Shown here: piece by piece, positions 1,543 through 21,235 of the stretch
Position numbering within the stretch: position 1 is the stretch's first letter
Layout of the letters: each line of letters starts with the position of its first letter
Source: Halorussus halophilus
GTDB taxonomy: Archaea; Halobacteriota; Halobacteria; Halobacteriales; Haladaptataceae
DNA: 64,000 nt
Assembly (NCBI RefSeq): GCF_008831545.1
Contig: NZ_CP044523.1
Span: forward strand, 2,790,001 to 2,854,000
Reading direction: 5' to 3'
Notes under the pieces: generated by a model
What the model was told of the DNA's origin: nothing
The model's input: only the letters and a program-made list of their open reading frames with translations
The model's database searches: none
Position numbers and translations under genes: made by a program

Positions 1543-3048
1543 TTACAGTTCTATCGTCGTTGATGCCGTTGCCCCATCGTCGTCGATGACGGTGAGCCGC
1601 ACGGAGACCGATTCACCGTCCGCAACAGTGACAGTCGTCGTCTCGCCGGTGTCGTCTACGGTTCCGTCGGCACCGACGTCCCACTCGTACTTGACGACCG
1701 AACCGTCGGGGTCCGCGGACGCAGAGCCATCCAGCGCGTAGGAATCGCCACATCCCTCCGCTTCCGAGTCGATGCGGGCCGAGGGCGCGCGGTTCTCCGA
1801 CTCGTCCGGTTTCGACCCGAAGAGTGAAACGGCGTACAGTGCGTCGTCGGAATCGTCGTCGTTGCCACCGCCCGCGGCGACGTACGCAGTTCCGTCGGCG
1901 ATAACGGGAGCGGTGTAGTTCGGATACGGTTCCTCGACGCTCTCGGTGAGGTGGTACACCCGCGTGTCGCGGTTCTCCGGGTCGAGGAGTGCGAGTGACT
2001 TCCAGTTGGTGTCGCCGTCCTCGTGACGGATGACGAGGCCGAGCGCGTCGCCAGCACCGACCAGATGGGACCGGGAGTCCACGTCGGACCCCAGTTCGGG
2101 GTCCCAGTTCCACAGCCGTTCGCCCGACTCGGCGTCCACCTTCGTCAGTACTCCACTGCTGGTCTGGAGGACGAGCGAGTCTTCGCGGACGACGTAGCTC
2201 TTCGTCCGGTTGTTCGTCCCCCACCGTTTCTCGCCGGTCGAGACCGACAGCGCCGAGAGGTTACCGAGGGTGTCGAAGTGGTAGAGTGTCCCATCGGCGA
2301 CGGCGAGGTCGGTCGCTTCGATATCGTAGCTCCATCGCCGCGCACCGGTGTCCGTCTCGTAGGCGTACACTCCATCTTCGGTGGCGAGGAAGACGCCATC
2401 TCCGACCACCATCGTCTCGATTCGGACGTAGTCGTCGTCCGGAAACTCGGCCGACATATCGACGGTCCACTGCGTCGAACCGTCGTCGGTCGATAGCTTG
2501 TAGACCGATTGGTCTGCGAGTACGTACACCCCGTCGTTCGTCGCCTGCACGAGTATCACACCGGAGTCGTCGTGGTGCCACCGTTCGCTCCCGTCGTCGG
2601 TCGAGAACGACCAGATACCGGAATCATCGACGCAGTAGACAGCCTGCCCGACGACAAACGGGTTCCGAACGTCGTCGTTCACCTCGGTGTGCCACTGTTG
2701 CATTCCGGTTTCAGCGTCTACGGCGTGGAGGTGTGGCTCCATCGCCCCTGTGCGCTTGCCGACGCCGTAGACAGAGCCGTCGGCGGTAACAGGATCGTGA
2801 ATCGCTCGGTCCTCGGACGAGTAGGTCCACTTCGTTTGGAGGGTCGTGGGATACGCGCCGCGCGGGTTGTACCACGTGTCGCCGGAGCCGAATCCGGGTT
2901 GTCTCCACCCACTGTCTGTGGAATCGAGCGTGTCGGACTTCGATGCAGGTAGTTCGGTGCCGGTGTCACCGGTCACCGTCGAGGCGAGTGCTGAACTACT
3001 GATAGCCAGTGCGGCAGATTTCAGAAACGTCCGTCTTGGAGTCTCCAT
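1543..3048 (-). CDS. Tat-exported PQQ-type beta-propeller protein with C-terminal PKD domain
   Basis: A 501-residue extracellular protein. The N-terminus has a twin-arginine signal (PRRTFLKSAALAISSSALA). Residues about 60-400 hold repeated propeller blades of the form VYAYETDTGARRW, typical of PQQ-like quinoprotein or BamB-like repeats. The last 85 residues form a PKD domain (YEWDVGADG, VRLTVIDDDGA). The ATG at the start of METPRRT was preferred to an upstream ATG because it places the Tat motif correctly. No PQQ-dehydrogenase active-site residues are obvious, so a structural or binding role on the cell surface is more likely than enzyme activity. It stands alone, with a 5' AT-rich promoter region. 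Confidence 0.85.
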   Translation of the reverse strand: METPRRTFLKSAALAISSSALASTVTGDTGTELPASKSDTLDSTDSGWRQPGFGSGDTWYNPRGAYPTTLQTKWTYSSEDRAIHDPVTADGSVYGVGKRTGAMEPHLHAVDAETGMQQWHTEVNDDVRNPFVVGQAVYCVDDSGIWSFSTDDGSERWHHDDSGVILVQATNDGVYVLADQSVYKLSTDDGSTQWTVDMSAEFPDDDYVRIETMVVGDGVFLATEDGVYAYETDTGARRWSYDIEATDLAVADGTLYHFDTLGNLSALSVSTGEKRWGTNNRTKSYVVREDSLVLQTSSGVLTKVDAESGERLWNWDPELGSDVDSRSHLVGAGDALGLVIRHEDGDTNWKSLALLDPENRDTRVYHLTESVEEPYPNYTAPVIADGTAYVAAGGGNDDDSDDALYAVSLFGSKPDESENRAPSARIDSEAEGCGDSYALDGSASADPDGSVVKYEWDVGADGTVDDTGETTTVTVADGESVSVRLTVIDDDGATASTTIEL

Positions 3049-3213
3049 CGGGGGTACCTCGACAGCGAATAGTTCGAAAACGCATATCACTATGTGGGCG
3101 GTAGAATCGTGAAAATTCCATTATTTTAGGACTAAACGTGGAAATAGTGGATAATTATAGAACGAAATGCCACCGACGTTGCGTAGCCAGACACGCGAAC
3201 ACCGGATCCACGG

Positions 3214-3615
3214 TCAAAACAGCAACATGAAGTTGTGCACGCCCAGATAGCCGTACCAGACGCCCGCCGAGGCGTAGGTCACGACGCGGAACGCACGGGG
3301 GTAGGCGTCGGGTGCCCACTCGTCGGGCACCAACCGAGAGACGAGTTCGCCGCTCTCGGCCAGAATCGCCACGCCGACGACGGCGATGACGACGGTGACG
3401 AGGACGCCAGTGACGAGGCCGATGTGTTCTATCAGCGTTCGGGTGAGCCACATCGACTCGTAGACGTCGTCTCGCAGTTGCAGGACCGTGATGGTGCTAA
3501 TCGCGTCCAGCGACTTGCCGAGGAAGACGACGGCGAGCAGACCGAGGCGGTTCGCTCCGACGGCGTACCGACCTGTCTCCGTCCCGTATGCGTCCGAGTA
3601 CGAGCGATTCGACAC
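3214..3615 (-). CDS. Four-helix membrane protein, unknown function (DUF5658-like)
   Basis: The 133-residue product has about four hydrophobic segments. The first (LGLLAVVFLGKSLDAISTI) is followed by a short polar stretch and a long helix pair (GLVTGVLVTVVIAVVGVAIL), and the protein ends in GYLGVHNFMLLF. This layout resembles the DUF5658 small membrane proteins of haloarchaea, but the match is by eye. The start appears to be GTG. No neighbour suggests a role. Confidence 0.65.
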   Translation of the reverse strand: MSNRSYSDAYGTETGRYAVGANRLGLLAVVFLGKSLDAISTITVLQLRDDVYESMWLTRTLIEHIGLVTGVLVTVVIAVVGVAILAESGELVSRLVPDEWAPDAYPRAFRVVTYASAGVWYGYLGVHNFMLLF

Positions 3616-3731
3616 GAATTGTGGTAGTCTACTGCACGACTTTGTTATAGACCGAGCAACGGGTCGTTAGCGGAGTGATAAGTGAATTAGGCGGTGCCTG
3701 CGCGAGCAGTCGAACGTCGAATTTTCAGATT

Positions 3732-12535: not shown

Positions 12536-13252
12536 ATGTCGCAGTCAGGGGGCGGCGCGGAGTCGGACTCGGTGGTCGAGGTGAAGTTCCGCGTCACCGA
12601 CCCGAGCTACCCGTTGGTCGCAATTCCAGAGCAGACCGGCTGTTCGACTCACGTCGAGCAGATAATGCCGAACGGAGACAACACCTACTCTATCTTTCAC
12701 TCGTTCTCCGGCGCTTCGGACGAGGACGTGTTGGCCGCCATAGAAGCGTACGAGGCGCTCGAAGCGCGGATGATAGACGGCGACGACGCTGGCGGTATCG
12801 CCGAGATTCGCGTAAACAACCCCGAAAAGCACTTCGTCGCGTCGTTGACCGACGCCGGGGCGATTCCCCGACACCTCTCCAGTGCCGACGGCGTCGCCCA
12901 CATCGTCGCCGAGATTCCGAACGTCTACGACACCAGCAAAGTCGTGGCGCGCTTCCAAGAGTCTCACCCATCGGTGACAGTGGCGGCACGCCGACAGAAG
13001 AGTTACACGACGCCGCTGTTCTCCCGGCGGGAACTCCAGCGGGCCGTCGAGGAACTGCTGACCGACCGCCAGCGGGAAGTTCTCCTCGCGGCCTACGAAG
13101 GCGGCTACTTCGAGAGTCCGCGCGAGAAGTCGGGCGAAGCGGTGGCGAGCGAACTCGGTATCTCGCTCTCGACGTTCTCACAGCACCTGCGGAGTGCGGA
13201 ACAGAAGTTGTGTTCGCTCGTCTTCGAGGCGTTGACCCCCGAACTAGAGTAG
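12536..13252 (+). CDS. Bacterio-opsin-activator-type HTH transcription regulator
   Basis: A 238-residue haloarchaeal regulator. Residues about 15-175 form a sensor-like alpha/beta domain without a recognisable ligand motif. Residues about 180-235 are the HTH_10 domain (LTDRQREVLLAAYEGGYFESPRE, then ELGISLSTFSQHLRSAEQKL). Its TATA-like element (cacttagtt) is 27 bases before the ATG. It converges on ncsA with only four bases between the stops. The target genes are unknown. This is one of four members of the family in the window. Confidence 0.85.
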   Translation: MSQSGGGAESDSVVEVKFRVTDPSYPLVAIPEQTGCSTHVEQIMPNGDNTYSIFHSFSGASDEDVLAAIEAYEALEARMIDGDDAGGIAEIRVNNPEKHFVASLTDAGAIPRHLSSADGVAHIVAEIPNVYDTSKVVARFQESHPSVTVAARRQKSYTTPLFSRRELQRAVEELLTDRQREVLLAAYEGGYFESPREKSGEAVASELGISLSTFSQHLRSAEQKLCSLVFEALTPELE

Positions 13253-14546: not shown

Positions 14547-14741
14547 ATGCCCGTGTCAGGATACGACCCCGACGACTTGGACGACAAACTCGTCGAGTTG
14601 ATGGCCGACCGAGACGTATCGAACTGGCTCACGGCCGAGGAGCAACGCGAGTACGAACAGGGTGCGAACCTCGTGGACCTACTGGACGACGAGGACATCC
14701 ACGACCTGCTCGCAGGAGACGATGGCGACGGGCCAGACTGA
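14547..14741 (+). CDS. Small acidic hypothetical protein (64 aa)
   Basis: The product is very acidic (about a third Asp/Glu) and predicted helical (DDKLVELMADRDVSNWLTAEEQREYEQG), with no hydrophobic segment. The next gene starts inside its 3' end, so the two are translationally coupled. No family is recognised; it may bind or neutralise the downstream product. Confidence 0.65.
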   Translation: MPVSGYDPDDLDDKLVELMADRDVSNWLTAEEQREYEQGANLVDLLDDEDIHDLLAGDDGDGPD

Positions 14742-15366
14742 CCTCCCGCGGGCGGTGACGGCCGCGGCGGTCGGCGACCCGCGGCCCATCTCCCAACGCG
14801 AGGTCGTCCGAGAATGGCTTCGAATGGAGTGCCAGCGAGGGGCAATAGAGTCAGATGCACTCGGGACACTGACCGACCGCGAGGCACTGGACGAACTGCT
14901 CGAACGCAAGCCCGGTGCGGCCGCGTTCGTCTGGCGCGAGAGTCCAACGTGGTACGAACTCTCGCTCGACCGCGAGACGTTCGAGCGACTGCACGTGGTC
15001 GAGGGACCCGAGAATCTTCGGTGGCGCGCGCTCTCGCCCGACGGGACCGTGCTGGGTGCGGCCAGACGAGTCGCGAACGAAGACCCCGACCGGTTGGCCG
15101 CCGAAACGGGGGTGGACGTTCGGAAAGTTCTGCGCTTCAGCGACCAGCCGCCGGGCGGCCCGCTAGTCCTCTCGACCAGACAGGGGTGTTCGCCCGTGAC
15201 GGTCGCCGACGGCAATCACCGAGCGGTCGCGCAGGCACTCGGTCTGCTGGCAGGCGAGGACTATCGGCCACGGCGAGCGTATCTCGCCATAGGTGCGAAC
15301 CCCGTCCTGCGACCGTTGGCCGAGCGAACGTGCGGGTTGGTACGACGAATTCTGTCTCGTCTCTAA
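14722..15366 (+). CDS. Hypothetical protein with a ParB/sulfiredoxin-like DGNHRA motif
   Basis: A 214-residue soluble protein. Near residue 163 it carries VADGNHRAVAQALGLL, which resembles the DG(H/N)HR motif of ParB/Srx-fold proteins that bind or hydrolyse nucleotides; this is a by-eye match only. The N-terminal part is helical (ISQREVVREWLRMECQRG) with no known motif. Its ATG overlaps the end of the upstream small acidic gene, and it ends about 70 bases before the dehydrogenase that opens the next operon, so it may belong to that operon or to a separate one. Confidence 0.65.
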   Translation: MATGQTDLPRAVTAAAVGDPRPISQREVVREWLRMECQRGAIESDALGTLTDREALDELLERKPGAAAFVWRESPTWYELSLDRETFERLHVVEGPENLRWRALSPDGTVLGAARRVANEDPDRLAAETGVDVRKVLRFSDQPPGGPLVLSTRQGCSPVTVADGNHRAVAQALGLLAGEDYRPRRAYLAIGANPVLRPLAERTCGLVRRILSRL

Positions 15367-15435: not shown

Positions 15436-16479
15436 GTGGGTCAGTCACTGTACTTCACCGGGCCGCGAGACGTGGCCGTCCGACAGCGAGAGTGTCCAGA
15501 CCCCGAAGCAGGGGAAGTTCGGGTTCGCACAGAGTACTCTGCGGTAAGTCCGGGCACGGAACTACTCGTCTATCGGGGCGACGCACCGACCGAGATGACC
15601 ACCGACGAGACGCTGGACACGCTGTCGGGGTCGTTCGAGTTCCCGCTCCAGTACGGCTACGCCGTGGTCGGTCGAGTCACCGAGACGGGACCGGACGTGG
15701 ATTCTGAGTGGGTCGGCCAGCGCGTCTTCGCGTTCAACCCTCACGAGAGCCACTTCTGCGCGCCGGTTTCCGACCTGCTCGCCGTGCCCGAGGACTGTTC
15801 GTCGGAAGCGGCCGCGTTCCTCCCAACCGTCGAAACTGCAGTCAACTTCCTCCACGACGGTGCGCCACTGCTGGGCGAACGCGTCGCCGTCTTCGGGCAA
15901 GGTCTCGTCGGACTGCTGACGACCGGGTTGCTCGCCAACTATCCGCTCGACTCGCTGGTGACGCTCGACTGCTACGAGTCTCGCCGCGCTCGCTCTGCCG
16001 AGTTGGGTGCAGACGCGACGCTCGACCCCCGGAAGGGAGAGTGTGCGAGCGCAGGCGAAGACGCCTGCGCGAGCGAACGAATCCGCGAGCAGTTCGGTGA
16101 CGAGGGAACAGATTTGACCTACGAACTCTCCGGACAACCCGGGGCACTCGACTCCGCCATCGCCGCGACTGGCTACGACGGGCGGGTCGTCATCGGGTCG
16201 TGGTACGGCACCAAGCCAGTCGAACTCGACCTCGGCGGCCGGTTCCACCGCAGTCGAGTGCGCGTCGAGAGCAGTCAGGTCAGCACCATCGACCCCGAAC
16301 TGCGCGGCCGCTGGAGCAAGGACCGCCGCCTCGACGTGGCGTGGGACGAACTTGCCGACCTCTCGCCCGAGCGGTTCGTCACCCACGAGTTCGACATCGA
16401 GGAGGCCGAGCGAGCGTATCGACTGCTGGACGAACACCCGGAAGACGCGCTCGGCGTGCTGTTCCGGTACGAATCTTGA
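15436..16479 (+). CDS. BchC-like medium-chain dehydrogenase/reductase
   Basis: An MDR-superfamily oxidoreductase of 347 residues. It lacks the catalytic-zinc residues of alcohol dehydrogenases: the usual CGSD is SPGTELLVYRG and the usual GHE is YGYAVVG. Both variants resemble BchC, which oxidises a hydroxyethyl group on bacteriochlorophyllide, so the true substrate may be an unusual alcohol. The Rossmann motif is VAVFGQGLVG near residue 150. Residues about 198-215 (GECASAGEDACASER) are encoded by a perfect GC-rich hairpin that looks like an in-frame insertion. The start is GTG. It is the first gene of a four-gene unit, with 27 bases to the PTPS-like gene. Confidence 0.85.
   Translation: MGQSLYFTGPRDVAVRQRECPDPEAGEVRVRTEYSAVSPGTELLVYRGDAPTEMTTDETLDTLSGSFEFPLQYGYAVVGRVTETGPDVDSEWVGQRVFAFNPHESHFCAPVSDLLAVPEDCSSEAAAFLPTVETAVNFLHDGAPLLGERVAVFGQGLVGLLTTGLLANYPLDSLVTLDCYESRRARSAELGADATLDPRKGECASAGEDACASERIREQFGDEGTDLTYELSGQPGALDSAIAATGYDGRVVIGSWYGTKPVELDLGGRFHRSRVRVESSQVSTIDPELRGRWSKDRRLDVAWDELADLSPERFVTHEFDIEEAERAYRLLDEHPEDALGVLFRYES
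16049..16070. repeat. GC-rich hairpin inserted in frame in the dehydrogenase gene
   Basis: GCGCAGGCG and CGCCTGCGC flank an AAGA loop, bordered by GAGCG on both sides. It resembles the palindromic GAGCG-type repeats found in nearby intergenic DNA and encodes a low-complexity loop in the protein. Confidence 0.5.
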
Positions 16480-16506
16480 AGACGCTGGCCGTCGCCTCCG
16501 TAGGGG

Positions 16507-16884
16507 ATGTACAGCGTCACCGTCGAGCGGTCGTTCGTCGCACAGCACTTCCTGACGGTCCCGAACCCCGGACCGGAGGGAGAGCGACACTCCCACGCGT
16601 ACACCGCGAAGATTCAGCTCTCGGGAGAACGCCTGAACGAACACGGGTATCTCGTGGACATCGACGCAGTGAGCGACCGCGCGGACGAGACGGTTGCCCG
16701 CTACAGAGACGCGACACTAAACGACCTCCCGGAGTTCGACGGACTGAACCCGAGTCTCGAACAGTTCGCGCGACTGTTCGGCGACCGCTTCCTCACGGAG
16801 TTCGACGCCCCCGAAGTCGAGTCGCTGGCGGTGAAACTCCGAGAGGACGACGTGGCGTGGGCGTCGTTCGAGAGGGAGGTATGA
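16507..16884 (+). CDS. PTPS-fold (6-pyruvoyltetrahydropterin synthase/QueD-like) protein, atypical active site
   Basis: A 125-residue T-fold protein of the PTPS/QueD family, which acts on dihydroneopterin triphosphate. The three zinc-binding histidines are visible (His14 in FVAQHF; His28 and His30 in HSHAY), as is the NPSLEQFA helix. The catalytic Cys four residues before the first HxH His is Glu24, and the whole protein contains no Cys. The LDHxxLN motif reads YRDATLND, so the catalytic His is also lost. Glu in place of Cys is a feature of PTPS-III enzymes that make hydroxymethyl-dihydropterin, but loss of the His points to different chemistry. Its stop overlaps the start of the glycosyltransferase gene. 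Confidence 0.85.
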   Translation: MYSVTVERSFVAQHFLTVPNPGPEGERHSHAYTAKIQLSGERLNEHGYLVDIDAVSDRADETVARYRDATLNDLPEFDGLNPSLEQFARLFGDRFLTEFDAPEVESLAVKLREDDVAWASFEREV

Positions 16885-17984
16885 AAGTCGGCATCGTCGT
16901 CTACGTCGACATCGAGACGACCAGCGGCGGCTTCCTCTACGACAGGAAGTTAGTCGAGGCGCTCAGAGAGGCAGGCGACGACGTGCAAGTAGTCGAACTC
17001 CCGTGGCGAAACTATTCTCGCTCGCTCGCGGACAGTTTGCGTTCCAAAGTCGGGCGGCATCTCCCCGAAGACCTCGACGTGCTGGTCGAAGACGAACTCT
17101 GTCATCCCTCGCTGGTCGCTACCGACCCCGACCTGCCAGTCGTCGCGCTGGTTCACCACCTCCGGGCCAGCGAAGCGCGCTCTGGCTGGCGCGAACGACT
17201 CGGCCGACCGGTCGAGCGACGAATCGAACGGCGCTACCTCCAGCGAGTAGATGCTGCAATCTACGCCAGCGACGCGACTCGTCGAGCGGCAGAACGCCTC
17301 GCAAGATGGAGACCCGACGAAGCTCCGCCCACCATCGTCGCCCGTCCCGCTGGCGACCGATTCGACCCCAAAATCGGCGACGTCGAGCGGGCTATCGCGG
17401 AGCGGACTGACCGCGACCCGTTCCGAGTTCTCTTCGTCGGCGCGCTCGTTCCCCGGAAAGGACTGCACACGCTTCTCGACGGACTCCGAGGAGTCGCGGG
17501 CGACTGGCAACTGACTGTCGTCGGCGAGCAGAAAGACGAGAGTTACTTCGCACGCGTGCGCGAGCAGGTGCGTGCGAACGACCTCTCCGAGCGCGTCACG
17601 TTTCGCGGGCGACTCGGCGACGACGCGCTCGCCGAAGCGTTCGCCAGAAGTCACCTGCTCGCGGTTCCCTCGACGTACGAGGGGTTCGGCATCGTCTACG
17701 CGGAGGGAATGAGCTTCGGACTGCCCGCACTGGCGACGACCGAAGGCGGTGCGACTGAGTTGGTGACCCACGGAGAAGACGGATTCCTCGTCGCTCCCGA
17801 GAGTCCCGGTGCCGTCGCCGAGGCAGTCCGGGAGCTGCTCCGGAATCGCGAGCGACTGCGAGAGATGAGCCTCGCCGCACGGCGACGTTACGAAGCCCAT
17901 CCGGGGTGGAACGAGACGATGGCCGAAATTCGCGGGTTTCTACAACAAGTCGCCGACACCGACCAGCGGGAGGTCCCCGCGTGA
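16881..17984 (+). CDS. GT4-family glycosyltransferase in the PTPS operon
   Basis: A 367-residue GT-B glycosyltransferase. The N-terminal half binds the acceptor; the C-terminal half shows VLFVGALVPRKGLHTLL, VPSTYEGFGIVYAEGMSFG (the EX7E motif that contacts the donor phosphate) and TTEGGATELV. No signal peptide or membrane segment is seen, so it acts in the cytosol. It overlaps the PTPS-like gene by ATGA and the methyltransferase gene by GTGA, so it is translationally coupled to both. An acceptor made by the PTPS-like protein and dehydrogenase is a reasonable inference, not shown. Confidence 0.88.
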   Translation: MKVGIVVYVDIETTSGGFLYDRKLVEALREAGDDVQVVELPWRNYSRSLADSLRSKVGRHLPEDLDVLVEDELCHPSLVATDPDLPVVALVHHLRASEARSGWRERLGRPVERRIERRYLQRVDAAIYASDATRRAAERLARWRPDEAPPTIVARPAGDRFDPKIGDVERAIAERTDRDPFRVLFVGALVPRKGLHTLLDGLRGVAGDWQLTVVGEQKDESYFARVREQVRANDLSERVTFRGRLGDDALAEAFARSHLLAVPSTYEGFGIVYAEGMSFGLPALATTEGGATELVTHGEDGFLVAPESPGAVAEAVRELLRNRERLREMSLAARRRYEAHPGWNETMAEIRGFLQQVADTDQREVPA

Positions 17985-18871
17985 ACTTCCAGCGCTACCT
18001 CTCGGCCAAACGGACCGTTGACGACCGGGCACTGAATCGACGCGTCGAAGGCCGACTCGCCGCAGAGCTCTCGGGACGAGAGTCCCTCTGCGCCTTCGAA
18101 GTCGGCTGTGGAATCGGCACGACAATCGAGCGACTGCTTACTGAAGCGTGGCTTCCCGACGAAGTGCGCTACACTGCAATCGACCGCCGGGAAGCCAACG
18201 TCGCCATAGCGCGAAAGCGACTTCCAGAACGCGCCGCCGCGCAGGGGTACGCAGTTGGCGAGCGCGACGAAAAGCTGGTGTTCTCCCGAGGGAAGCGGCA
18301 GGTCAGCGTCGAGTTCGTGGTCGGCGACGCCTTCGACGTGCTTGCCGAATCTCGTGCTGGGAGCGTAGACCTGGTAGTCGCCCAGTCGTTCGCGGACCTC
18401 GTGGGTCCGCTCGACGCACTCGGGGCGTTCCGAAACGCGCTCGCTTCGGGCGGCGTGGCGTACCTGCCGCTCACCTTCGACGGCGAGACGGCGTTCGAAC
18501 CGGTGGCCGACAGGGAGTTCGAGCGTCGTCTCGTTCGGACGTTCCACGACCATCTGGACGAGTCGGGCGACAGTCGAGCGGGACGACACCTGCTGAGTTC
18601 GGTGTCCGAGAATGGCGAAGTTCTCGCGGTGGGAAGTTCCGACTGGGTGGTTCGCCCCGGCAAGAAGAAGGGCAAGGGAGGAGCGTCGGTGTATCCCGCG
18701 GACGAAGCGTACTTCCTGCACTGCATCGTGTCGATGGTCTCGGGGGCAGTCGAGAAGGAGGGGACGGTTCGGTCGGAGCAAGTCGAGCAGTGGCGAAAAG
18801 AGCGAGAGTCCCAAATTTCAGCAGGTGAGTTAGTCTACGTCGCACATCAGCTAGACTTACTCGTCCGGTGA
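17981..18871 (+). CDS. SAM-dependent methyltransferase in the PTPS operon
   Basis: A class I methyltransferase of 296 residues. The SAM motif FEVGCGIGTTIERLL lies near residues 35-50, the acidic ribose-binding motif follows (YTAIDRREANVAIARKRL), then VEFVVGDAFDVL and VDLVVAQSFADL. The C-terminal region (SSDWVVRPGKKKGKGG, then DEAYFLHCIVSM) is unlike common methyltransferases and may hold the acceptor. I chose the GTG that overlaps the upstream stop codon; an ORF extension upstream is in the wrong context. It is the last gene of the four-gene operon. Confidence 0.85.
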   Translation: MNFQRYLSAKRTVDDRALNRRVEGRLAAELSGRESLCAFEVGCGIGTTIERLLTEAWLPDEVRYTAIDRREANVAIARKRLPERAAAQGYAVGERDEKLVFSRGKRQVSVEFVVGDAFDVLAESRAGSVDLVVAQSFADLVGPLDALGAFRNALASGGVAYLPLTFDGETAFEPVADREFERRLVRTFHDHLDESGDSRAGRHLLSSVSENGEVLAVGSSDWVVRPGKKKGKGGASVYPADEAYFLHCIVSMVSGAVEKEGTVRSEQVEQWRKERESQISAGELVYVAHQLDLLVR

Positions 18872-20029: not shown

Positions 20030-20587
20030 GGGTCTCGATTCGGAACGGCGAAGCCGTGGAGAGTTGCGAGGTAGCGAGGCGTGAACGAGCGAAGCGAGTG
20101 AAGGCCTCGATAATACGAACGGGGAACCGCGAAATTCCAGCGGACTTTCGCAACGTGACCCGTGAGTAGCGATGCCTGAGCGAACGGAGTGAGCGAAGGA
20201 TTGGAAGAGACGATTTATTTTTTCGGCGAAACCGCGAAACCACCTGTGCCGCGAGAGACGAATCCCGTAGTATAAAATAATTGTCTAGAAGCCACAGATG
20301 TATCCCTATGTGACTATAATCGTAACACACGGAACCACGATCACACACTGCGCGCTCGCTCGACTGACAGAAGAGGCCAGTTCTGTCGCTTGGGCGGTGT
20401 CGAGCAGTTCATCCGCGCGTTCGATGCGCGGAGCGCGTCACACAGTTCCCACGCGTTCTGCATCATCAACTACAATCTATGTCATCTATCGAGATATTAT
20501 CGCGGAGCACGAGTGATGCTACTCAATCTGGCCGTGCAGTGGGACAGTTCGACAGTCGAATCGCTCTCGGACTGCGGGGCAATCACG
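20030..20587. other. Intergenic region with dispersed palindromic repeats and an AT-rich promoter zone
   Basis: No credible gene. Repeats of the GAACGAGCGAAGCGAGTG type lie at about 20080-20102 and 20175-20200. The stretch 20215-20310 is AT-rich (tttattttttcgg, gtataaaataattg) and could carry the promoter and terminator elements for the flanking genes. An ATG at 20516 could extend the next gene by 24 residues. Confidence 0.5.
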
Positions 20588-21235
20588 ATGAGTAGCGTCG
20601 CCGCGGACATCACTATCCCGGCCGACTCGTTCCAACTGGGCCGGGTCGTGGCGGGGACCGACTACCGCATCGAACTCACGCAGTTCGTGCCGACCGGAAG
20701 TACGTTCGTCCCCTACTTCTGGGCGGACGCACCCGACTTAGCGGCGTTCGAAGACGCAGTAGAGAACGAAGACCGCGTGGCAAGCCTCGAACGGGTGGAC
20801 GTCGGGACGAGCGGGACGCTCTATCGAATCGAGTGGGAGACGGAGATAGATGGCTTGCTCAAGGAGATCGACGACCAAGACCTACACATCAAGGAAGCGA
20901 TGGGGACCGAGGAGACGTGGCGGTTCGAACTGCGAGGACGGGACCACGAGACGCTCTCGTCGTTCCAGCAGTTCCTCAACGAGTGCGACGTGCCGAACAC
21001 CGTCGAGCGAGTGTGGAACCCGAACGAGTCGCGGAACAACCCCTACGGCATGACGGCCAAACAGCGCGAAGCACTGGAGTTGGCGTTCGAGGAGGGATAC
21101 TTCGCCGTCCCCCGCGAAACGTCGCTGTCGGAACTCGCAGAGAAGATGGGCATCACGCGCCAGTCGTTCTCCCGGCGAATCGCACGGGGAGTCAACACAC
21201 TCCTCTCGAACTCGATAATGGCAGAAAGTAAATAA
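20588..21235 (+). CDS. Bacterio-opsin-activator-type HTH regulator
   Basis: A 215-residue regulator with an N-terminal sensor domain of the kind found in Bat-like proteins (FQLGRVVAGTDYRIELTQFVP, about residues 10-150) and a C-terminal HTH_10 domain (MTAKQREALELAFEEGYFAVPRE, then KMGITRQSFSRRIARG). The start giving MSSVAADITIPADSFQLG matches the usual family beginning. A small operon of unknown Zn-finger genes follows on the same strand and may be related. Confidence 0.82.
   Translation: MSSVAADITIPADSFQLGRVVAGTDYRIELTQFVPTGSTFVPYFWADAPDLAAFEDAVENEDRVASLERVDVGTSGTLYRIEWETEIDGLLKEIDDQDLHIKEAMGTEETWRFELRGRDHETLSSFQQFLNECDVPNTVERVWNPNESRNNPYGMTAKQREALELAFEEGYFAVPRETSLSELAEKMGITRQSFSRRIARGVNTLLSNSIMAESK

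Follow-up and report, generated by a model that had tools for sequence, protein, structure and literature searches.

A four-gene operon at positions 15436 to 18871 of the 64,000-nucleotide stretch of Halorussus halophilus DNA analysed here (the window; contig NZ_CP044523.1, positions 2,790,001 to 2,854,000) encodes a dehydrogenase (DH), a PTPS-fold protein, a glycosyltransferase (GT) and a methyltransferase (MT). We propose, with a probability of about one half, that this operon forms the core of a cross-domain pathway branching from riboflavin synthesis at the GTP-derived diaminopyrimidine. On our best reading, the product would be a glycosylated, methylated pterin-like compound that is usually membrane-linked. 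We hold the general nature of the product, a pterin or pyrimidine compound that derives from GTP and is glycosylated and methylated, to be much better supported than the particular steps of alcohol oxidation and ring closure suggested below.

The four-gene order is conserved in archaea and bacteria

By translation, four open reading frames were found on one strand, with a 27-bp gap between the DH and PTPS genes, an ATGA overlap at 16881 (PTPS/GT) and a GTGA overlap at 17981 (GT/MT), which bears out the coordinates and junctions of the four co-directional genes described in the first-pass annotation:

15436-16479, + strand: DH gene, GTG start; zinc-less MDR dehydrogenase, BchC-like or polyol-dehydrogenase-like (PF00107/PF08240)
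16507-16884, + strand: PTPS-fold (T-fold) gene; PTPS-IV lineage, archaeal Glu-type (PF01242, 6.7e-24)
16881-17984, + strand: GT gene; GT4-family glycosyltransferase (PF00534, 1e-35)
17981-18871, + strand: MT gene; class I S-adenosylmethionine (SAM) methyltransferase (Methyltransf_12, PF08242, 1.6e-8)

Conservation was assessed in a catalogue covering Halobacteria, Actinobacteria and plasmids, in which the regions L071 and L193 carry no information. Of 292 Halobacteria genomes, 171 have a relative of the PTPS-fold protein and 121 do not, at a threshold that the QueD of the window's genome does not attain. Among 39 haloarchaeal regions of 20 kb, picked for taxonomic spread, all four genes stood in order in 18 and a further 15 carried DH-PTPS-MT without the GT, which strongly supports the earlier expectation that the four families are neighbours in related haloarchaeal genomes; the DH was present in 36 of these loci and the MT in 35. 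Another glycosyltransferase, unrelated to the GT, lay near the operon in 12 of the 16 GT-less loci versus none of the 23 GT-bearing ones, and the glycosyl step therefore seems to be conserved, since this other enzyme replaces the GT in most loci that lack it.

The system had been taken for a haloarchaeal one, but an equivalent gene order was also found in bacteria. The order DH-PTPS-GT-MT was present in 69 of 70 long loci of Streptomyces, and occurred as well in Microbacterium, on Rhizobiaceae plasmids, and in Methylosinus and Thiodictyon, thus in Actinobacteria, Alphaproteobacteria and Gammaproteobacteria; in Rhodobacteraceae the order was kept with the in-line GT missing. Two non-halobacterial archaea (L187 and L188) carried related operons with part of the gene set. 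Separately, a plasmid of Streptomyces anthocyanicus (L158) held a lone PTPS-IV gene beside genes for MEKHLA- and cupin-domain proteins, without DH, GT or MT.

GTP cyclohydrolases and other partner genes suggest the starting material

The first-pass annotation had limited the system to four genes, but additional partner genes recurred in other genomes, and a fifth gene lies upstream in the window. A gene for GTP cyclohydrolase (GCH) III (ArfA, PF05165; 5.3e-85 in one example) was located within 10 kb of the operon in 16 of the 39 haloarchaeal loci, and GCH II was found in the bacterial clusters and inside the archaeal operons L187 and L188. In these two archaea the enzyme is of the bacterial type and is encoded directly upstream of the DH (1990-3723 region in L187, 7516-8709 in L188); the usual archaeal enzyme is ArfA and not GCH II. 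In the genome G060, ArfA still adjoins the PTPS gene, though the MT and phosphatidyltransferase genes have relocated. A RibD_C reductase gene directly preceded the DH in non-Streptomyces Actinobacteria and lay near the operon in Proteobacteria, while a creatininase-family protein was encoded in Streptomyces clusters and a few haloarchaeal loci, the Streptomyces protein scoring under both the ArfB and MftE cut-offs. Genes for a CDP-alcohol phosphatidyltransferase were found near the operon in both domains, and those for a flippase-like LPG_synthase_TM protein, cytochrome b561 and a sulfatase-like protein were also recurrent. The cytochrome b561 gene stands beside the RibD gene in L153, L155, L163, L164, L167 and L168 (Thiodictyon and Rhizobiaceae); given this cytochrome, the product could conceivably have a redox role at the membrane.

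The GCH II genes were further divided by their switch residue. Met occupied this position in 74 of 74 Streptomyces cluster genes read, all with a creatininase neighbour (for example L073), and Tyr occupied it in L156, L164 (an Agrobacterium plasmid), L171, L180, L187 and L188; creatininase was absent near five of these six Tyr-type loci and present only at L188. Work by Spoonamore et al. from 2006 reportedly found that SCO6655 of Streptomyces, in which Met replaces a Tyr, makes a formamidopyrimidine (FAPy), and the spacing between the SCO6650 and SCO6655 loci is consistent with one cluster. Expression of SCO6655 was anticorrelated with modelled riboflavin flux in S. coelicolor (PMC2853524). 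ArfA, a Met-type GCH II with creatininase, and a Tyr-type GCH II thus appear to be three combinations that converge on one diaminopyrimidine. Because GTP cyclohydrolases neighbour the operon in both domains, a GTP-derived substrate is supported. Their types, II or III, are those of riboflavin synthesis, so that the riboflavin diaminopyrimidine is the most likely point of departure for the pathway. The operon neighbourhoods share GCH III or II, creatininase-family proteins and RibD_C with the ArfA/ArfB/ArfC and GCH II/RibD steps of riboflavin and F420 synthesis, whereas the DH, PTPS-fold protein, GT, MT and CDP-alcohol phosphatidyltransferase are part of neither pathway.

Methyltransferase and phosphatidyltransferase genes co-occur with the operon

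Across haloarchaeal genomes, a dedicated CDP-alcohol phosphatidyltransferase was found in 34 of 40 with the PTPS gene versus 0 of 40 without it (Fisher p 1.7e-16), a p-value that overstates the number of independent events since the genomes are related. The MT family was likewise present in 17 of 17 genomes with the operon versus 0 of 17 without it, and the MT contrasts held inside single genera (g1, g10, g29, g32 and g35), where they do not depend on that p-value. G060 and G142 have these two genes, MT and phosphatidyltransferase, detached from the operon but still less than 2 kb apart. The CDP-alcohol phosphatidyltransferase likely adds a membrane or phosphodiester step.

The PTPS-fold protein keeps the pterin-anchoring residue and has lost the side-chain-cleaving ones

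As the first-pass annotation had stated, the PTPS-fold protein contains no Cys, has His at positions 14, 28 and 30, and carries Glu24 at the position of the catalytic Cys. Its claim that the LDH motif is lost also stood, but the Ala that it placed at the motif's His did not: in a gapless HMMER alignment with solved QueD structures, the Asp-His pair fell on Arg67-Asp68, and Ala69 is the next residue. H14, H28, H30 and E24 were invariant in 42 aligned haloarchaeal sequences. In a wider alignment of 156 relatives, 155 of them in named groups, H14, H28, E85 and the pterin-anchoring E113 were invariant in the 155 classified members. The Cys position held Glu in 47 of 47 archaeal sequences and Ala in bacterial ones, and H30 was kept in archaea and some Actinobacteria and was Ala in Streptomyces and Proteobacteria. 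The only Cys among the aligned relatives belonged to a QueD-like outlier (L182), which was also the exception to an otherwise general loss of the Asp-His dyad.

With E24 at the Cys position, HSH in place of HGH and Arg67-Asp68 at the dyad, the protein differs from QueD and PTPS-I, and it scored 41.7 bits against the QueD model TIGR03367, under the cut-off of 89.25. Nor does it carry the PTPS-III motif ExxHGH, having ExxxHSH with the Glu one residue further upstream. It thus shares with QueD-type enzymes the T-fold, the zinc histidines, the pterin-anchoring Glu and PF01242, but lacks the CxxxHGH, CxxxxxHGH and ExxHGH motifs of PTPS-family enzymes. A role as QueD in archaeosine synthesis was rejected on account of the motif, the score and a separate QueD-like gene in the same genome (L002, G000:C1:1848286-1848645), which bears the Cys-containing motif CSRPHGH. 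Retention of the substrate-anchoring residue together with loss of the side-chain-cleaving residues argues against PTPS, QueD and PTPS-III chemistry, and by its residues the protein would close a ring rather than act as a side-chain lyase.

The nearest solved structure was that of SCO6650 from Streptomyces coelicolor (PDB 3d7j, E 4.8e-8), which is said to have been reported by Spoonamore et al. in 2008 as lacking both zinc and PTPS activity. With this PTPS-IV protein the window protein shares the DH-PTPS-GT-MT order, the loss of Cys and the Asp-His dyad, and the C-terminal Glu; the haloarchaeal form differs in having PGPEG instead of the PTPS-IV signature FGPAQ, which is present in Streptomyces and proteobacterial orthologues of equal gene order, Glu24 instead of Ala, and all three zinc histidines. 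SCO6650-type clusters pair with GCH II and the haloarchaeal form with GCH III. The neighbourhood is nevertheless that of PTPS-IV, with a GTP cyclohydrolase and shared DH, GT, MT and CDP-alcohol enzyme partners, and a PTPS-IV neighbourhood with PF00925 was reported by AGeNNT (PMC5445326). In the tree, the haloarchaeal sequences clustered with L187 and L188 in a separate group of good support, while the deeper joins were unsure owing to long branches.

Dehydrogenase, glycosyltransferase and methyltransferase

For the DH, lack of the zinc-alcohol dehydrogenase residues could be confirmed, with YGYAVVG and SPGTE standing where the GHE zinc-ligand motif and the Cys ligand would be, but the likeness to BchC that had been noted holds only below the cut-off: TIGR01202 was the best NCBIfam match at 66.3 bits, under the 291.25 needed for membership. 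The Agrobacterium and Thiodictyon orthologues likewise matched BchC best among the NCBIfam models. The annotated operon neighbourhoods showed no chlorophyll genes, and chlorophyll chemistry was rejected because the BchC cut-off was not reached. We propose that the DH oxidises a sugar-chain alcohol. Its identity to the Agrobacterium plasmid orthologue was 33% over a full-length alignment; that of the GT was 31%, also full-length.

The GT is a GT4 enzyme, with PF00534 (Glycos_transf_1) at 123 bits against a cut-off of 26.4. Among its relatives in the PDB is UDP-glucose:tetrahydrobiopterin glucosyltransferase (5ze7, 2e-12), a match that reflects general GT4 similarity, and by this likeness it is a candidate pterin glycosyltransferase. 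The GT4 family is also that of the cyanobacterial pteridine glycosyltransferases such as 5ze7. Natural pterin glycosides include solfapterin and cyanopterin, the latter also methylated; these pathways start at GCH I and are not known to use RibD-type, BchC-like DH or CDP-alcohol enzymes. The MT is a class I SAM methyltransferase, with PF08242 above its cut-off, a Rossmann methyltransferase fold and motif I; its structural model had a predicted local distance difference test (pLDDT) score of 95 and 3mgg as the top Foldseek match (6.5e-13), and it was homologous end to end to the methyltransferases of the bacterial clusters (hhalign 99.7% over 262 columns).

Proposed pathway and alternative explanations

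The reactions and their order, which we infer from gene order, co-occurrence, family membership and active-site residues, would run as follows. GTP would be opened by ArfA to FAPy in haloarchaea, by a Met-type GCH II with a creatininase-family deformylase in Streptomyces, or directly by a Tyr-type GCH II, all three arriving at 2,5-diamino-6-ribosylamino-pyrimidinone 5'-phosphate. ArfC or a RibD-type reductase would then make the ribityl compound, and the MDR dehydrogenase would turn its 2'-alcohol into a ketone, which is also the intermediate formed in the GCH I reaction through an Amadori rearrangement. With its pterin-anchoring Glu, the PTPS-fold protein would close the ring to a dihydropterin; the GT4 enzyme would then attach a sugar, and the methyltransferase would add a methyl group. 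A last step may follow in most genomes but not in that of the window, the dedicated CDP-alcohol phosphatidyltransferase joining the product to a phospho-alcohol or a lipid. The DH oxidation and the PTPS ring closure are the weakest parts of this scheme. That the whole redox detour (GCH II or III, RibD-type reductase, BchC-like DH and PTPS-fold closure) replaces the GCH I Amadori reaction and yields a previously undescribed pterin glycolipid in most lineages is a tentative proposal that we hold to be rather unlikely as a complete statement. The suggestion of the first-pass annotation that a glycosylated and methylated pterin is made by a new route is still plausible, in view of the GTP cyclohydrolase neighbours and the invariant E113.

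Several points weigh against a pathway of this kind. The single ArfA gene of the window's genome lies 1.27 Mb from the operon and is shared with riboflavin synthesis. This genome also has no dedicated phosphatidyltransferase, and so a lipid-linking step is not evident in it; it encodes just two CDP-alcohol enzymes, like its operon-less congeners. Ala24 and the frequent loss of H30 in bacteria mean that the chemistry of the PTPS-fold protein may differ between the domains, and the DH, judged by its residues, would lack the catalytic zinc of most polyol dehydrogenases. The link between Met-type GCH II and creatininase comes from one lineage, the FAPy assignment of SCO6655 is a reported one, and all reactions and the product are proposed from genes.

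Alternatively, as the first-pass annotation implied, the operon might decorate pterins on the folate side, the PTPS-fold protein acting on dihydroneopterin (cyclic) phosphate from MptA or GCH I with GCH II and III being incidental. PTPS-fold enzymes do use dihydroneopterin phosphates, E113 is kept, and a tetrahydrobiopterin glucosyltransferase is among the GT4 relatives, but the recurrent neighbour in both domains is GCH II or III and not GCH I or MptA, the archaeal operons L187 and L188 have a GCH II of their own, and a GCH I-fed pathway needs neither GCH II nor a RibD-type reductase, so that we consider this explanation improbable. The link to phosphohalopterin drawn earlier likewise found no backing, as no neighbour from the MptA/GCH I branch was seen and the term did not occur in the literature searched. 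Similarly improbable is a pathway for envelope glycolipids, with a PTPS-fold protein that is no longer an enzyme and GTP cyclohydrolase genes that just happen to lie nearby. The GT, methyltransferase, CDP-alcohol phosphatidyltransferase, flippase-like and sulfatase-like genes would suit such a pathway, as would the loss of one zinc ligand in Streptomyces and proteobacterial members, but GCH II or III, the RibD reductase and creatininase turn up repeatedly in lineages that are not related, none of the 155 classified relatives deviates at E113, H14 or H28, and in G060 it is ArfA that has stayed beside the PTPS gene while the MT and phosphatidyltransferase genes have gone elsewhere.

Participation in one of the two established pathways that share the pyrimidine is far less credible. 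Zallot 2016 (PMC5041015) mentions, with reference to unpublished data, a role of PTPS-IV in making cofactor F420, and the ArfA-derived pyrimidine is indeed common to F420 and riboflavin, with ArfA a frequent neighbour. Of 50 haloarchaea, however, 49 have a strong CofH, and among the 25 that lack the operon the count is 24, which largely refutes F420 as the essential role, and the operon is present in Rhizobiaceae, Rhodobacteraceae and Methylosinus, which are not generally known as F420 makers; we therefore regard this role as very improbable. Hardly any weight can be given to the idea that the operon fills the archaeal riboflavin gap, as a deaminase or phosphatase. The adjacency of ArfA favours it, and deletion of HVO_1284 (arfA) led to riboflavin auxotrophy (PMC8305020), but the PTPS relative is absent from 121 of 292 Halobacteria genomes, nine of nine operon-less genomes tested have ArfA, and riboflavin synthesis has no place for a GT, a methyltransferase or a phosphatidyltransferase.

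Other genes around the operon in the window

One further gene precedes the operon, and its end lies 69 bp upstream of the DH gene:

14722-15366, + strand: fifth, upstream gene; 214 aa, ParB/sulfiredoxin-like predicted fold, DGNHR motif

The gene is unannotated but conserved, with homologues in the operon regions L033, L034, L037 and L070. Its product matched no Pfam or NCBIfam model; the AlphaFold model was of moderate confidence (pLDDT 77), and its Foldseek matches were weak (sulfiredoxin at E 0.2, ParB and free serine kinase), by which it is possibly a nucleotide-binding or kinase-like protein. As a stand-in for the absent CDP-alcohol enzyme it was dropped, because G060 and G073 carry both. 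Two regulators of the BAT/HTH_10 (bacterio-opsin activator) type are encoded at 12536-13252 and 20390-21235, one on each side of the operon.

Relation to earlier work and implications

Earlier papers had already made known the PTPS-IV subfamily with its GCH II neighbourhood (PMC5041015, PMC5445326). In the literature searched we found no earlier description of the haloarchaeal Glu-type branch, its pairing with GCH III, the CDP-alcohol partner or the evidence against F420; a search on the operon's gene combination returned nothing, and one on SCO6650 or HVO_1280-1283 nothing useful. Members of the subfamily are annotated in public records as 6-carboxytetrahydropterin synthase.

The subfamily is present in more than half of the sampled Halobacteria and in several bacterial phyla, and the genome evidence separates its role from those in F420, riboflavin and queuosine/archaeosine synthesis. 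Because the partner set is defined down to the probable starting pyrimidine, the reaction is directly testable. A lipid-linked pterin glycoside, should this be the product, would represent a new class of membrane metabolite, made by a second route from GTP to the pterin ring.

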